In this document: positions 55,030-62,232 of the stretch, one piece after another
Layout of the letters: each line of letters begins with the position of its first letter
Numbering within the stretch: the stretch's first letter is position 1
Source: Gracilimonas sp.
GTDB lineage: Bacteria; Bacteroidota; Rhodothermia; Balneolales; Balneolaceae
Assembly: GCF_040218225.1 (NCBI RefSeq)
Contig: NZ_JAVJQO010000002.1
Span: 248,001 to 312,000, forward strand
DNA: 64,000 nucleotides
Reading direction: 5' to 3'
Made by a program: the position numbers and the translations under genes
The notes under the pieces: model-generated
What the model saw: only the letters and a program-made list of their open reading frames with translations
Told to the model about the DNA's origin: nothing
The model's database searches: none

Positions 55030-56226
55030 TTAAAAGCCAGCACTCAATTGTAGTGCAAATACATTGTCATCCAATTCAGTGCCGCCATTAGTGGAATAAA
55101 GGTACGAAGCTTTCAGAATCACATTTCGATCCAGCTTAAATCCCGTTGTGAATTCTATGCGTTCCCGGTCATACGTCCATTTCTCATAGTTATATGCAGA
55201 CTGATTGTTTTTGAGGTCGCCTGAAATCAGACGCTCCAGCCTTATTGCTGCATATGCTCCGGGCAGAAATGGAAAATCAGCTATTAACTCTGAGCTTATG
55301 TGCTGAACCTGGACTTCATCCTCCCAAACAAACAATAGTGGGGTGCCAAGTGAATCAAAATAAGGGGCTTCCCATTTACTCCAGTTATAGGATGCCAAAA
55401 ATGTGAAGTAGTGATAAGACAGTTCTACATCTGTTCCAAACAACGTTTGGGTATAATTCTTAAGTTCATCATCGGACAGCACTTCGTTCATCTCGTCTCT
55501 TTTCATATATGAACCATGGCTCAGAGAAAGACCTAATCTACCCCATACAAAAGGTTGAAAAACTAGCCTTCCGGTAAAAGCTGGAGTGGCATGTTCCCCG
55601 TATTCAAAATGGCTTGATGCAGCCGCCAGAGTTGCTGCAAGATTATATCTGAGCCAACCCGAATCTCCTACCCTATTCCCTATCATAATTCCTTGAGTAT
55701 ACATACGCTGATAAACCATAGTCAGGCCTGTTATGTCGTCCCCATAATCCACCCCATCAATTAAGGTACCCAGAGTTTTACTGATTGGAAGACCTGAGGC
55801 ATGTGATAGTGGTAAGTGAACAAATGGATTATCAGAAGAAAGTACACGGCTGGAATAGGCTCCATAGGGTGTTACAAAGCGACCAGCCGTAATCGTAAAG
55901 TTGGACTCATCAACTGGCATGTAGTTGATATTCATCACCGAAAAGAAAGGAGAACTAAGCTGCTTTCCATCGTAGTAATCAGCCTGTAAAGCAGCAGAAA
56001 CAAACCATTTCCTTGAAATGTTACCGCTGATAAATAATCGTAAATAAGGGGTGTAAACGGATATATTTTCATTCGGAGTTTGGTTCACGTAAGGAGATGA
56101 ATCGCTCCCTCCCTTCCGAATTTCGAAATCAGCAAGACCACCAATCTGAACCTGCCCTTTTACGGATAGGGAATGAAAATTAATTCCTAAAAAAATTACA
56201 AAAACAAAAATCGTTTTGATTTTCAT
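55030..56226 (-). CDS. Outer-membrane barrel protein of the cupredoxin-cyclase operon
   Basis: A 398-aa protein with a signal peptide (about 1-25, ending VKGQ), strand-rich aromatic/polar alternation and a C-terminal LQLSAGF, typical of a beta-barrel. The segment PVDESNFTITAGRFVTPYGAYSSRVLSSDNPF resembles motifs of other porin-like proteins that I could not name. Its ATG overlaps the cyclase stop by 4 bp (ATGA), so it is translated with it. It may be the surface pore for the signal or cargo of this operon. Confidence 0.7.
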   Translation of the reverse strand: MKIKTIFVFVIFLGINFHSLSVKGQVQIGGLADFEIRKGGSDSSPYVNQTPNENISVYTPYLRLFISGNISRKWFVSAALQADYYDGKQLSSPFFSVMNINYMPVDESNFTITAGRFVTPYGAYSSRVLSSDNPFVHLPLSHASGLPISKTLGTLIDGVDYGDDITGLTMVYQRMYTQGIMIGNRVGDSGWLRYNLAATLAAASSHFEYGEHATPAFTGRLVFQPFVWGRLGLSLSHGSYMKRDEMNEVLSDDELKNYTQTLFGTDVELSYHYFTFLASYNWSKWEAPYFDSLGTPLLFVWEDEVQVQHISSELIADFPFLPGAYAAIRLERLISGDLKNNQSAYNYEKWTYDRERIEFTTGFKLDRNVILKASYLYSTNGGTELDDNVFALQLSAGF

Positions 56227-58025
56227 GACAAACCTCCCCGGCTTTCAGCAATGGAAGTCATCCGTTCGGTATCCCAGTCAATCTCATAAATTTGAACTGG
56301 CTTCTCAATTCCTTTTACTTTTATTGTTTCAAGTTCATTGATGGGCACTTTGCGTTCCAGGTTCAGAAAAACAGATTCTGAGATTAAGATCTGGTGTTGT
56401 TTAGCTGCCGAACACAAGCGGGCTCCCAAATTAACGGTACTACCTAATACTGTAAAATCCATTCTATTCTCACTCCCCATGGCTCCCATAACCACTTCAC
56501 CGCTGTTAATGCCTATACCAACTGCTAAATCTTCTTCCTCTTTCTGCAAAAGAGACTTCAATTTCTTCTGGATTTGAACGGCTGCATTTACGGCCTGTTG
56601 CTCTTTGTCTTCCCCCTGAAATACAGCAACCAGCTCATCACCCACAAACTTGTCTACGTCTCCCCCAAAATCATGTACGAGGTCTGCCTGATAACTCAAT
56701 AAATTATTCAGCATATCAATGACCTGCTCGGGAGTATGGTTTTCGCTCCATGCAGTGAAACCACGTATATCAGAAAAAAGAACCGTGATATCTCTTCGTT
56801 CGCCTCCAGGCTCAATGCGTGATATATTTTTCTTTATCGCATCAAGTGTGGCCTCCGAAACAAACTTCAGCATAAGAAGCCGTTCGCGCAGTCCTTCAAC
56901 CAATTCATTAAATGCACGGGTTAACTCACCGATTTCATCCCGGCTGGTAATGGGTACTTCTTCACTGAAATCTTCTTTCTCTACCCTTCGGACGCCATCT
57001 AACAGTAAATAAATTGGTTTTGTGATTCGGCTGGTAATCCAGATACTAATTGCAATAGCCCCTGCAATTGCAAATATCCCAATACCAAATATCAACAATT
57101 GTAAGTTTTGAAGAGGAATCAGCTCTCTTGTCAGAGACTTTGCCACTGCATAATACCCGTCAATTCCCTTAATGCTGCCCGTGGTTTCAAACATTGGCGC
57201 AATATAAATAAGCCAATTTTCAGACCCCAGAGACACTTCGGTTGAGGTTGCCTGTCCATTTTTAAGTACTTCAAACGTCGCAGCGTGTATATTCCTTGAA
57301 AGTGTGTTTTTATTGGAAGATGAAATGCTTTCGAAAGAACCCGCCAAAAGCTGATTATCAACATAGTATAGTACTTCGAGCCCCATATCTCTGGAAAGTT
57401 GTTCGGTCTCAAGCTGCCTGATAGGAAATCCATAAGATAGAGTTCCACCCAACTGATTTCCTGACCAAACCGGAATAGTGATTACATTGAAATACCTCTG
57501 ACCTTCTTTCCAAATATAGCTTTGAACTGGCATTTCTCCCTGTAATGCCGTGCCTATTCCAGCCCTGTCTGCAATTGAATATCTTGGAAGAGGAGCTGAT
57601 GACATTTGCCCAAGCGGCCTTCCTTCCGGGTCACAAATAATCAGTAATCCCGCTGAGTCAGGATTCATATAGAATTCGCTTGGAACAAGTGAATCCGGAA
57701 TAATAGGATCGAAATCCAAAAGATACAGCAAATCTTCCCGGAGTACATGATTTACAGTAGCCGTATCACCGGTAGAAATGGCGGCCTTTAAACTTGGGAT
57801 ATCGGCTAACAAAATGGCTGTTTGCCTTAACTGGCGGAAACGGATATCCTGGATACGTTCGAATACTCTGCCTGCTTCACTAAAGTTGGAGTCAATATCC
57901 TGTCTGATTCGCGATTCCAGAATCTGGCTGGAACTGAAAAGAAGGATCAAAACGGTCGTCAGAACCAGTGCTACAAATCCTGTCAGAAGTTTCCATCTCA
58001 AACTAAAGAATTGACTGCTGTTCAT
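56223..58025 (-). CDS. Membrane adenylate cyclase (class III) with periplasmic sensor and HAMP
   Basis: A 600-aa protein: helix 1 (about 14-34), a periplasmic sensor region of about 265 residues, helix 2 (about 305-330), HAMP (about 332-385) and a class III cyclase domain (about 405-590). The six catalytic residues are visible: metal-binding Asp419 (VLFSDIRGF) and Asp463 (KFVGDELVAVF), adenine-specifying Lys459 and Thr525 (MDFTVLG), and transition-state Asn532 and Arg536 (VNLGARL). This set predicts ATP and not GTP as substrate. It starts 3 bp after the cupredoxin gene and overlaps the barrel gene, so the three form one unit. It should turn a periplasmic cue into cAMP. Confidence 0.9.
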   Translation of the reverse strand: MNSSQFFSLRWKLLTGFVALVLTTVLILLFSSSQILESRIRQDIDSNFSEAGRVFERIQDIRFRQLRQTAILLADIPSLKAAISTGDTATVNHVLREDLLYLLDFDPIIPDSLVPSEFYMNPDSAGLLIICDPEGRPLGQMSSAPLPRYSIADRAGIGTALQGEMPVQSYIWKEGQRYFNVITIPVWSGNQLGGTLSYGFPIRQLETEQLSRDMGLEVLYYVDNQLLAGSFESISSSNKNTLSRNIHAATFEVLKNGQATSTEVSLGSENWLIYIAPMFETTGSIKGIDGYYAVAKSLTRELIPLQNLQLLIFGIGIFAIAGAIAISIWITSRITKPIYLLLDGVRRVEKEDFSEEVPITSRDEIGELTRAFNELVEGLRERLLMLKFVSEATLDAIKKNISRIEPGGERRDITVLFSDIRGFTAWSENHTPEQVIDMLNNLLSYQADLVHDFGGDVDKFVGDELVAVFQGEDKEQQAVNAAVQIQKKLKSLLQKEEEDLAVGIGINSGEVVMGAMGSENRMDFTVLGSTVNLGARLCSAAKQHQILISESVFLNLERKVPINELETIKVKGIEKPVQIYEIDWDTERMTSIAESRGGLS

Positions 58026-58028
58026 AGC

Positions 58029-58742
58029 TTAAAAATTAAGCGTTACAGTTCCAACTTCAATAGCTTCTTCTGAAATAATTTCGACTGGAATAGCTTTCTC
58101 CTGATAACCGAGTGCATAAACTCGAAGCTGGTAATCTCCAGAAGCAATATGATCAAAAGAAAATGAATCCCCGTTCTTTACTTTGGTCCATGTTATCACA
58201 CTTGGCGGCATTACATAAATTGTAGCACGCATGTTTGAATGAATATCACAAAAAACATCTACCGCACCAGGTTGATCAAACGTTACATCCAGATACTGAC
58301 CTTTAGGTCTGCGTCCCACATCAAACCTTTTCTTTGGGGAAAGACTAAATACATTGTGATATACAGGATCGGAATTGCGAATTCTGACAGAGCCATGTTG
58401 ACGAACAGGCAATAAGGAAGGACTAAATGATAAATCTTTCTGGTCGAGCAAAACCGGTGTTTCCGAGGCTTTCCCCGATGACGAAGATGAGCTTTCAAGC
58501 CAAATCAATACAGAATCGGTCACTGATGCCGTAGAGCCCGCTGATCGTGAAGGTCGCCCATATCTTCCTCCCACACTCACAGAAGTCTCCTTGGCAGTCA
58601 ACAGCACAACCCCTTCAACCTTTCCATGAGGTTGGCTTTGTCGGGCAGATACAAATTCTTGGGGTATAATCAGAAAAAAACTGAAAACAGCCACATACGA
58701 TAGAACTAGCGTCCCCTTCATCATACTGAGTTTAATTAGCAT
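58029..58742 (-). CDS. Exported cupredoxin-like protein
   Basis: About 237 aa. A hydrophobic signal/anchor region at the N-terminus (LSYVAVFSFFLIIP) is followed by a Ser-rich low-complexity segment, a cupredoxin-like domain and a short C-terminal beta-sandwich (FDHIASGDYQLRVYALGYQEK). The copper-type ligands are visible as His in VYHNVF and Cys-x2-His-x2-Met in FCDIHSNM, the pattern of small blue-copper-like proteins annotated as methylamine-utilisation proteins. The start could be ATG 58742 or 58724; a TTG at 58775 is less likely. It stands 3 bp before the cyclase, probably acting as a redox or ligand sensor or electron carrier for it. Confidence 0.78.
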   Translation of the reverse strand: MLIKLSMMKGTLVLSYVAVFSFFLIIPQEFVSARQSQPHGKVEGVVLLTAKETSVSVGGRYGRPSRSAGSTASVTDSVLIWLESSSSSSGKASETPVLLDQKDLSFSPSLLPVRQHGSVRIRNSDPVYHNVFSLSPKKRFDVGRRPKGQYLDVTFDQPGAVDVFCDIHSNMRATIYVMPPSVITWTKVKNGDSFSFDHIASGDYQLRVYALGYQEKAIPVEIISEEAIEVGTVTLNF

Positions 58743-58967
58743 TGACGTTACTTTAAAAACCCTTTGCTCAATCAAGTCAATCTACTAAAAATAACCTATT
58801 GTTGTAACCACGTAATGCGAGATACAAAAAGACTGTATTAAATCATAAATTCGCCTTTTCCGGGTCTCATAATTCCTTTATTAAGATTTTACCATAGCCA
58901 ATTAAAAAATTATTTATTATATATTTACTAGTTAAATGTTATGGGTTATAAATAATCGGGCAAAGCA

Positions 58968-59883: not shown

Positions 59884-62232
59884 CTACAATTCACTCAAAG
59901 TACTGCTTGAGCCTTTCTCTTTGTCTTTCCTGAACTCAATTTGATAGGTAACACCACCCTTTCCCGTTATCGTCCATTCTGCACCAATTTGGCTTAACAG
60001 TGCCTTTATTAGGGTAATGCCCAAGGAGTTCTTTCTTGCCAGGTTTTCTTCACCCGAAAAACCAATCCCATTATCTTTTATTCTGCTATAGATAATTTCA
60101 TTCTTCTCCTCAAGCTCTACTCTTAATTCTCCACTTTTTCTTCCGGTAAAAGCATGTTCAAGAGCATTGGAAATAATTTCATTAAGAGCCAAAGCAAAGG
60201 GAATAGCCTGATTTATATTTAGTTCAATATCTTCAATTTCGGTATGTATTTTCACCTCGGTATTACCAATCTTGATGCTACTCTTAATCTGATCGATCAG
60301 GTCGTCTATGTATTCAAGTATAGAAATTTTACTCAGGTTTTGAGATTGATATAGTTTCTCATGGATCATGGCCATGGTTTGAATGCGCATCTGGCTTTCC
60401 TGAATCAACCGCTGAAATTTCGGGTCAGAATATTCATAAACCTGTAGTTCCAGCAAACCTGAAATCACAGCAAGGTTGTTTTTTACTCTGTGATGAATTT
60501 CCTGCAGCAATACTTCTTTTTCATTTAACGTAGCCCGTAATTCATTTTCTCTCTTTTTTAGGTCACTAATATCCTGGCCAGTACCGATGATAAATGTTTC
60601 ACCATCTCTTTCAAACAAAACTGCATTTACATTACGGGCTAAAGTCTTCCCATCTTTTGTTATAGGATTGGATTCTAAGCTTACTTTACCATGTTTAAGA
60701 AGTTCATCTACCTTACCATGTAAAAGCTGTTTATTCTTTTCGGAGTATTGATCAAGCATTTTCCTGTTTAGCAGTTCTTCAACAGAATACCCTAAATCGT
60801 GAGCAAGATTTTTATTCGCTCTCAACAAATTCAGGTCTTTATCCAGCATAAAAAATGTACCTGGCAGCCCGTCAATAATAGCATCAACAAATCTTTTTTC
60901 TTCAATCAGTTCCCTCTCCATTTCTTTTTGTTTACCAATATTTAACCCAATAATCAGAAACACTTCCTCCCCATCCATCATAATAGTGCTACCCCGCCAA
61001 AAATAGGGGCTTATCTTTCCCCTCTTATGTTGCAAGTTCACTTCTTGCCCCGCAGACTTATTGGCCAGAATTTTTTTCATGGCTTCAATAAGGTCTTTAT
61101 GATTCTCTTTGGGAGTAAAGTCAAAAGCTGACATGTGCTTAAGTTCTTCGGCTGAGTATCCAGTCAGTTTTTCACCTGTTTTATTCCAGAGCAGAAGGTT
61201 CATTTTTTTATCAACCACTGTAACAATACTAGGTAGGTTATCTAGTATCTGCTGGGTAAAGTTTCTCTGTTCAATAAGCGATTCTTTCATTGAAAGCCGC
61301 TTCAGGAAATTCCCAATGATTTCTACGGAAGTCTTGAGTGTCAGTAACTCATAATGCTCCCATGAACGAACTTCGCCCGTAGAATCAAAACCCAGGAAAC
61401 CAAACCAATCATCCCCCTGAAAAACAGGAAGCAGTAAAACAGATGAAATCCCTTGCATCTCCATCAATTCACGTTCTGGAGAGGGCAACGCAGAACTTGG
61501 CTGATTAACAATAAGATTAGATGAAAGCCTTTGTTGAAAAAAAGGAAATTCTTTGTAGGGAATATCTTGTAATTCCGGATTATTGATCTGTGGCTCAACA
61601 CCTTCGGCACAGGCTTCAAACTTTTGGCTTACCAATAGGTTGCCATCTTCAGTAGTTTTATTGGTAAAGAAGTAAACCCGATCAGTTTCTGTTATTCTTT
61701 GCAGGATTTGAAGCACTTCCTCAAAGACGCTAATATCCGAGGCGTCTACTAATAAATTCGAACATTCAGCCAGTGCGTGTTGGTAGGAAAGCCTGCTTCT
61801 TAATTCTTTCTCGGTCTCTCTTTGGGCTTCCAGCTCGGATTTTTTTCGTTCAGTAATTTCAAAGGATGTTCCCAAAATTGATTCGGGTTTGCCCGAATCA
61901 TTATACTGCAGTTTAATTTCATCTCTTAGCCATATGAGCCGGCCATCCTTTCTCTTAAAGCGGTATTCATTGATTGCAGTTCCCCCATTTTCAAGCACTT
62001 GAAAGAACCTGCCGGCCACTTTCTCCTTATCGTCAGGATGAATACGACCAGACCAAGCACCACTTTTCGTAAAAAAATAATCAGCCGAAAAACCTAGTAT
62101 CTTTTCAACATTAGCGCTTACAAAAGTAACAGGGTATTCGCTTGTAGATGCACATTTGAAAGCAATAATACTGCCATCCTCGAACAGCTGTTCTACATCC
62201 GTACTGGTTAGTGTTTTCCGATTATCCTTCAT
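59884..62232 (-). CDS. PAS-GAF-PAS-PAS hybrid sensor histidine kinase (HisKA_2/HWE type)
   Basis: A 782-aa cytosolic kinase: PAS/PAC (about 10-130), a GAF-like domain (about 150-315), two further PAS domains (about 330-445 and 455-565), then HisKA_2 with phosphoacceptor His581 in LLQEIHHRVKNNLAVISG and an HATPase domain ending with DNGIGFSGEENLARKNSLGITLI. The PAS domains show typical LGFSADYFFTKSG and KRKDGRLIWLRDE segments. The HHRVKNN motif marks the group that often phosphorylates stand-alone response regulators and does not use a linked HTH regulator; none lies next to it. Sensed cues are unknown. Confidence 0.9.
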   Translation of the reverse strand: MKDNRKTLTSTDVEQLFEDGSIIAFKCASTSEYPVTFVSANVEKILGFSADYFFTKSGAWSGRIHPDDKEKVAGRFFQVLENGGTAINEYRFKRKDGRLIWLRDEIKLQYNDSGKPESILGTSFEITERKKSELEAQRETEKELRSRLSYQHALAECSNLLVDASDISVFEEVLQILQRITETDRVYFFTNKTTEDGNLLVSQKFEACAEGVEPQINNPELQDIPYKEFPFFQQRLSSNLIVNQPSSALPSPERELMEMQGISSVLLLPVFQGDDWFGFLGFDSTGEVRSWEHYELLTLKTSVEIIGNFLKRLSMKESLIEQRNFTQQILDNLPSIVTVVDKKMNLLLWNKTGEKLTGYSAEELKHMSAFDFTPKENHKDLIEAMKKILANKSAGQEVNLQHKRGKISPYFWRGSTIMMDGEEVFLIIGLNIGKQKEMERELIEEKRFVDAIIDGLPGTFFMLDKDLNLLRANKNLAHDLGYSVEELLNRKMLDQYSEKNKQLLHGKVDELLKHGKVSLESNPITKDGKTLARNVNAVLFERDGETFIIGTGQDISDLKKRENELRATLNEKEVLLQEIHHRVKNNLAVISGLLELQVYEYSDPKFQRLIQESQMRIQTMAMIHEKLYQSQNLSKISILEYIDDLIDQIKSSIKIGNTEVKIHTEIEDIELNINQAIPFALALNEIISNALEHAFTGRKSGELRVELEEKNEIIYSRIKDNGIGFSGEENLARKNSLGITLIKALLSQIGAEWTITGKGGVTYQIEFRKDKEKGSSSTLSEL

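Follow-up and report, generated by a model that had tools for sequence, protein, structure and literature searches.

A cupredoxin gene paired with a Cache-type cyclase receptor in Gracilimonas and a putative family of copper- or redox-sensing receptors with exchanged output enzymes

The stretch of DNA analysed here (the window, 64,000 nucleotides) comes from Gracilimonas sp., a member of the Balneolaceae (contig NZ_JAVJQO010000002.1, positions 248,001 to 312,000). Three open reading frames (ORFs) on the minus strand of the window encode, in order, an exported cupredoxin-like protein (58775-58029), a membrane receptor that ends in a class III nucleotide cyclase domain (58025-56223), and an outer-membrane barrel (56226-55030). 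The genes are tightly packed, as an earlier note on this DNA had described: a gap of 3 base pairs (bp) separates the cupredoxin and cyclase genes, and the cyclase and barrel genes overlap by 4 bp. The cupredoxin-receptor pair recurs in seven or more bacterial phyla and with five or more kinds of output enzyme, which points to an unnamed and widespread means by which bacteria sense copper or the redox state at their surface.

In the AlphaFold model of the cupredoxin-like protein (predicted local distance difference test score, pLDDT, 87), a signal helix and a Ser-rich stretch of low confidence precede the cupredoxin domain, and a small beta domain forms the C-terminus. The Pfam Cupredoxin_1 match is weak (E 3e-5, below the family cut-off). 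The modelled cupredoxin domain resembles amicyanin and plastocyanin (Foldseek E 9e-8; amicyanin TM-score 0.74 by target), and VIA-align gives Z 12-13 against these proteins with a root-mean-square deviation of 1.4-2.1 Å over 82-93 residues. Both programs also group the domain with the cupredoxin domain of a NirK. The C-terminal beta domain resembles CarboxypepD_reg/fn3_3; it is modelled with high confidence, and its matches to the two families are weak. The predicted copper site comprises H140 as the N-terminal His ligand (codon 58356-58358) and a C176-x2-H179-x2-M182 loop (58230-58250) with the spacing and length of the amicyanin loop. This loop and the upstream His had been recognized in the earlier note, which took a loss of the copper ligands in close relatives as grounds for abandoning its proposal. 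No such loss was found, as all four ligands are unchanged in 45 of 45 homologues. They are also kept in a separate 45-row set that includes proteobacterial and cytochrome-associated relatives. Conservation lies mostly in the cupredoxin domain near the copper site, and only G213 and Y215 stand out in the C-terminal domain. A cupredoxin fold with a conserved His, Cys, His, and Met set is that of a type 1 (blue) copper site, and the protein is predicted to bind copper.

In the receptor, two hydrophobic, predicted transmembrane segments (residues 11-36 and 307-332) bracket a periplasmic part of ~270 residues (~37-306; codons 57108-57917). A HAMP domain (329-381; E 7e-12) and the cyclase domain (411-580; codons 56286-56795; PF00211, E 3.6e-27) follow. 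This Guanylate_cyc match scores 95.6 bits against a curated cut-off of 21.9. The periplasmic part is probably of the dCache_3 type (PF14827): its own score of 13.5 bits is below the cut-off of 25.7, and the assignment is made via the homologues at loci L038 and L045, whose scores of 33.1 and 40.6 bits exceed it. The six catalytic residues that the earlier note had counted are all present and fit a class III cyclase, namely two metal-binding Asp residues (D419 and D463), the substrate pair K459/T525, and the transition-state residues N532 and R536. They are kept in 30 of 31 homologues, and the lone exception, L033, carries a kinase instead of a cyclase. The closest PDB structures are adenylate cyclases of the Lys/Thr kind (Slr1991, CyaB, and soluble adenylate cyclase), and the window enzyme, which we take to be class IIIb, has the same pair. 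Unlike these three, it is joined to the probable dCache_3-type sensor and a HAMP domain and coupled to a cupredoxin gene. The purine-specifying Lys/Thr pair suggests that ATP is the substrate and that the product would be cyclic AMP (cAMP). Such a signal could be read in the host because its genome contains four matches to cyclic nucleotide monophosphate (cNMP)-binding proteins, along with six class III cyclases.

The third protein has a signal peptide and a C-terminal Phe, and its structure model (pLDDT 87) is a barrel of 16 strands. The closest structures are OprP and OprO (VIA Z 27.7 to OprP) and general porins, and the model fits a 16-strand general or OprP-type porin. The sequence has no Pfam match and no NCBIfam match near a cut-off, and by sequence the barrel does not belong to a named porin family.

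Is the gene neighbourhood conserved? The earlier note had proposed a search for homologues of the cupredoxin gene. Such searches gave hits in 18 of 58 relatives, in 66 of 198 genomes of the phylum, and at 32 named loci from several phyla. ORF maps show that almost every strong Bacteroidota homologue with a flank available is followed directly by the gene for a receptor built in the same way. This receptor is a cyclase, or a kinase in two Balneolaceae loci, and a homologous barrel usually lies after or before the pair. The reciprocal test used the cyclase as the sole query (E<=1e-60) in 57 genomes of the family. All 25 cyclase matches in the Balneolaceae adjoin a cupredoxin gene; 24 of these places coincide with hits of the cupredoxin search, and the remaining one, in genome G291, also has a cupredoxin and a barrel. 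The chance that a given gene adjoins one of the six class III cyclases in the genome is well under 1%. The reciprocal test, together with conservation across phyla, rules out a chance adjacency of cupredoxin and receptor. The lack of a conserved neighbourhood, which the earlier note had named as its other ground for refutation, was thus not observed.

The spacing of the pair is likewise conserved. In 55 of 56 distinct pairs the cupredoxin and sensor genes lie at -84 to +151 bp, most of them at -3 to +12 bp, and the remaining pair overlaps in a shifted frame. The trio is conserved although its flanks differ between genera: the window and its nearest relatives have an amidase, others have a mechanosensitive channel and a phosphorylase, and a paralogous group has DeoC and two aldehyde dehydrogenases. 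Where paralogous operons occur within single genomes (G025, G031, G093, G107, and G226), each cupredoxin type stays with its own receptor type. The earlier note had held that the three genes must work together. This does not follow from the packing alone, but the conservation across phyla makes it a strong inference.

The paralogous cupredoxin-cyclase-barrel operon was observed in the Balneolaceae at L059, L067, L068, L069, L071, L096, L098, and L099, and five genomes have both operon types. The genes upstream of it match in size and order. In L059 they are a DeoC-type aldolase, two aldehyde dehydrogenase-family genes, and a SPOR protein.

The output of the receptor differs between loci. A class III cyclase is present in the window and in FCPU426 (L045), a HisKA_2 kinase in two Balneolaceae loci (L033 and, by profile and motif, L193), and a HisKA kinase in L037, L038, and L195, with KSB1 and Eisenbacteria among the HisKA loci. 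A GGDEF-EAL output is found in L132 and L133, and the receptors of L187, L188, and L191 are annotated as EAL-domain proteins. A SpoIIE phosphatase output is found in L199 (Myxococcota). To compare sensors, the periplasmic domains were aligned by hhalign with HAMP and output removed and a chemoreceptor as control. The probability of a match to the window sensor was 100% for the HisKA_2 receptor, 99.3% (E 2e-19) for GGDEF-EAL, 98.2-99.0% for HisKA of KSB1 and Eisenbacteria, and 98.9% for SpoIIE, whereas the chemoreceptor control gave 0.1%. A false homology driven by HAMP is thus ruled out. The clearest swap is L033, whose receptor shares 48% identity with that of the window over residues 7-383 and then continues into a HisKA_2 kinase. 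In the cupredoxin tree, L033 and L193 are nested within the Balneolaceae cyclase clade with 100/100 support. These comparisons support the view, first raised in the earlier note, that output enzymes were exchanged in evolution around the same sensing pair.

The GGDEF/EAL neighbours of proteobacterial cupredoxins, which the note had mentioned, were also found. The evidence comes from three genera (Caballeronia, Comamonas, and Novosphingobium) and consists of five plasmid loci in which the receptor is intact. In these, a gene labelled methylamine utilization protein encodes a cupredoxin that is homologous to that of the window and has all four ligands; it adjoins the gene for a dCache_3-HAMP receptor with a homologous sensor, annotated as an EAL-domain protein. 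These unnamed pairs differ from the window in their GGDEF-EAL output and in having a DUF3034 protein instead of the 16-strand porin. In Caballeronia and Novosphingobium they also differ in an exported truncated haemoglobin that accompanies the pair. Group 1 truncated haemoglobins lie beside the proteobacterial pairs at L133:5311-5706, L187:4007-4447, L188:2863-3426 (minus strand), and L192:3875-4318. They are probably periplasmic because most have signal peptides.

Several neighbouring kinases were left out of the count of outputs. The kinases of L100 and L107 have sensors unrelated to that of the window. A relation was undetectable, save for a weak hint for L050, in the Ser/Thr kinases of Myxococcota-type genomes. 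At L200, L202, L203, and L050, cupredoxins directly adjoin or overlap membrane Ser/Thr kinases that have an N-terminal extracytoplasmic part and a sensor without detectable relation to that of the window. A conserved exported protein of 440 residues lies beside cupredoxins on the minus strand of L100 (6261-7583), L107 (6475-7812), and L109 (6655-7983). It has one CxxCH near its N-terminus (FARKYKT-x-C-x2-CH), and the L100 and L107 copies have no Pfam match. In L100 and L107 it is followed by the kinase, whose unrelated sensor is dCache_1-like.

In the tree, most cupredoxin homologues that lack a receptor group apart (49 rows, 92/81 support), with two exceptions, both of the unrelated-kinase type. 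A protein with at least two CxxCH motifs lies within 4 kilobases (kb) of 14 of the 28 receptor-less cupredoxins with long flanks, versus 0 of 17 cyclase-type loci. Neighbours of the receptor-less proteins include an eight-CxxCH cytochrome and COX1. The signalling cupredoxin thus looks to have been recruited from electron transfer, because its receptor-less relatives often adjoin multihaem cytochromes. At L105, L106, L108, L111, L115, L116, and others, cupredoxin relatives adjoin a protein of ~870 residues with eight CxxCH, and in L122 and L130 an oxidase-sized gene follows this protein (COX1 in L122). The SpoIIE-type locus includes CCP_MauG-type and multihaem cytochrome genes. In this locus (L199:4068-11708), a MauG-type peroxidase, the cupredoxin, a multihaem cytochrome, the dCache-HAMP-SpoIIE receptor, and a second SpoIIE protein lie in a row. 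The cytochrome, MauG, and COX1 neighbours and the exported truncated haemoglobin favour redox sensing over plain copper sensing.

The listed start of the window cupredoxin gene is TTG at 58775. This start is doubtful because the sequence upstream of the TTG is conserved in close relatives, directly up to the codon, and the proteins of these relatives align only from residue ~16 onwards. An ATG at 58742, 58724, or 58721 is the more probable start. The conserved upstream block (58776-58805, minus strand), which contains AGGTTATTTTTAGTAGATT, was recognized by visual comparison of the window with L053, L054, and, in part, L055, and is probably a promoter or leader. A PAS/GAF/HisKA_2 histidine kinase gene lies upstream of the operon on the same strand (59884-62232), and one likewise lies near the operon in the close relatives L053 and L054.

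How might the three proteins act together? We propose that they form a tripartite envelope signalling operon in which the cupredoxin would be the copper or redox input, acting in trans, of the dCache-HAMP cyclase receptor; our confidence in this proposal is close to even and leans towards acceptance. The exported cupredoxin would load type 1 copper and serve as an input subunit of the membrane receptor. Its copper or redox state would depend on electron donors or oxidants in the periplasm or on the supply of copper, and that state would alter how the cupredoxin engages the dCache_3-type domain. HAMP would relay the change to the cyclase domain and so alter cAMP output, which cNMP-binding proteins of the host could read. 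The 16-strand porin would pass a relevant small molecule or metal ion through the outer membrane.

Several observations weigh against this proposal. Copper binding, contact between cupredoxin and sensor, and the nature of the signal are predictions from sequence and single-chain models. No natural fusion of a cupredoxin with a receptor was found; the long ORFs of L145 and L147 lack receptor domains, and the candidate in L159 merely overlaps the receptor ORF in another frame. The partner domain of the cupredoxin is not fixed, because L087 and L107 pair it with kinases whose sensors have no detectable relation to that of the window. No electron donor is apparent at the cyclase loci, where cytochrome genes are absent within 4 kb. 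The barrel is kept in Bacteroidota, KSB1 (99.9% to the window barrel), and Eisenbacteria (99.1%) but is not universal. The porin may be optional for the module, because the profile detects no barrel at the FCPU426 loci and an unrelated DUF3034 protein takes its place in Proteobacteria (hhalign probability to the window barrel 0.3%).

Cache domains commonly bind small molecules on their own, and related cupredoxins are found in respiratory loci. The genes could therefore be co-regulated with separate roles, the Cache domain binding an ordinary ligand admitted by the porin and the cupredoxin being an electron carrier or enzyme partner that does not touch the receptor. However, no other part of the module is as constant as the cupredoxin-receptor pairing, which persists when outputs are swapped, when the phylum changes, and when the barrel is lost or exchanged; within a genome, paralogous cupredoxins and receptors also keep to their matching types. 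We consider separate roles rather unlikely. In a copper-availability sensor, by comparison, the cupredoxin would report the copper level through its apo and loaded forms, the porin would admit copper, and the cyclase would adjust copper or cuproenzyme physiology. The invariant ligands, the periplasmic location of the cupredoxin, and a porin within the operon agree with this model. Type 1 sites, however, usually hold copper tightly and serve electron transfer, cupredoxin relatives sit with cytochromes, and no copper pump, chaperone, or resistance gene was recognized beside the examined cyclase-type loci, where most neighbours were not profile-searched. Such a sensor is unlikely in our judgement. 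In a further reading, which we consider very improbable, the cupredoxin would act as a binding partner in the periplasm: its CarboxypepD_reg/fn3-like domain would recognize an organic or polymer ligand, and copper would be only structural. This second beta domain is confidently predicted, but the conserved residues lie mainly around the copper site.

Beyond the window, we tentatively suggest, at somewhat below even confidence, an unnamed class of trans-acting redox receptors in which a blue copper protein of respiratory type was recruited as the separate, redox-switched ligand of a dCache-HAMP receptor. The class would span at least seven phyla and at least five outputs (cAMP, cyclic di-GMP, two histidine kinase types, and a protein phosphatase). 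The signal of most Cache receptors is not known, and a receptor family that nearly always has a copper-protein partner gene offers a specific candidate input. If the cupredoxin gates the receptor, the redox or copper state of the envelope would be read through a separate protein of electron-transfer type, and the same pair would feed cAMP, cyclic di-GMP, phosphorelay, or phosphatase pathways. This would also give a function to many methylamine utilization protein entries and to neighbouring orphan porins. No description of the module was found in the openly licensed literature (CC0, CC BY, and CC BY-SA), a scope outside which most subscription papers fall.

Amicyanin and plastocyanin share their fold and ligand order with the window cupredoxin. 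The latter differs in its extra N-terminal region and C-terminal beta domain, and its genomic partner is a receptor rather than methylamine dehydrogenase or a photosystem. The closest working analogue of the whole operon, by analogy only and without relatedness, would be YfiBNR/HmsCDE. In these systems, control runs from an outer-membrane protein to a periplasmic protein that is sensitive to redox state, and from the latter to a diguanylate cyclase in the inner membrane (PMC4655355, PMC5550408). HmsC levels and the contact between HmsC and HmsD respond to the periplasmic redox state (PMC5550408). Both arrangements are tripartite, with an inner-membrane HAMP receptor carrying a nucleotide cyclase, a periplasmic regulator, and an outer-membrane component. 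In YfiBNR/HmsCDE, however, a disulphide protein takes the place of the periplasmic partner, the outer membrane carries a lipoprotein (YfiB), and the output is a diguanylate cyclase. The window operon is not a member of YfiBNR, as it has a cupredoxin, a porin barrel, and a class III cyclase in place of a YfiR-like protein, an OmpA-type YfiB lipoprotein, and GGDEF, and the NCBIfam matches of its receptor to YfiN are at the level of HAMP only. A redox cofactor also serves a Cache-type extracytoplasmic sensor in the sCache_heme nitric oxide sensors, which hold haem covalently within the Cache domain (PMC12889525). In the window module, the cofactor would instead sit on a separate protein.

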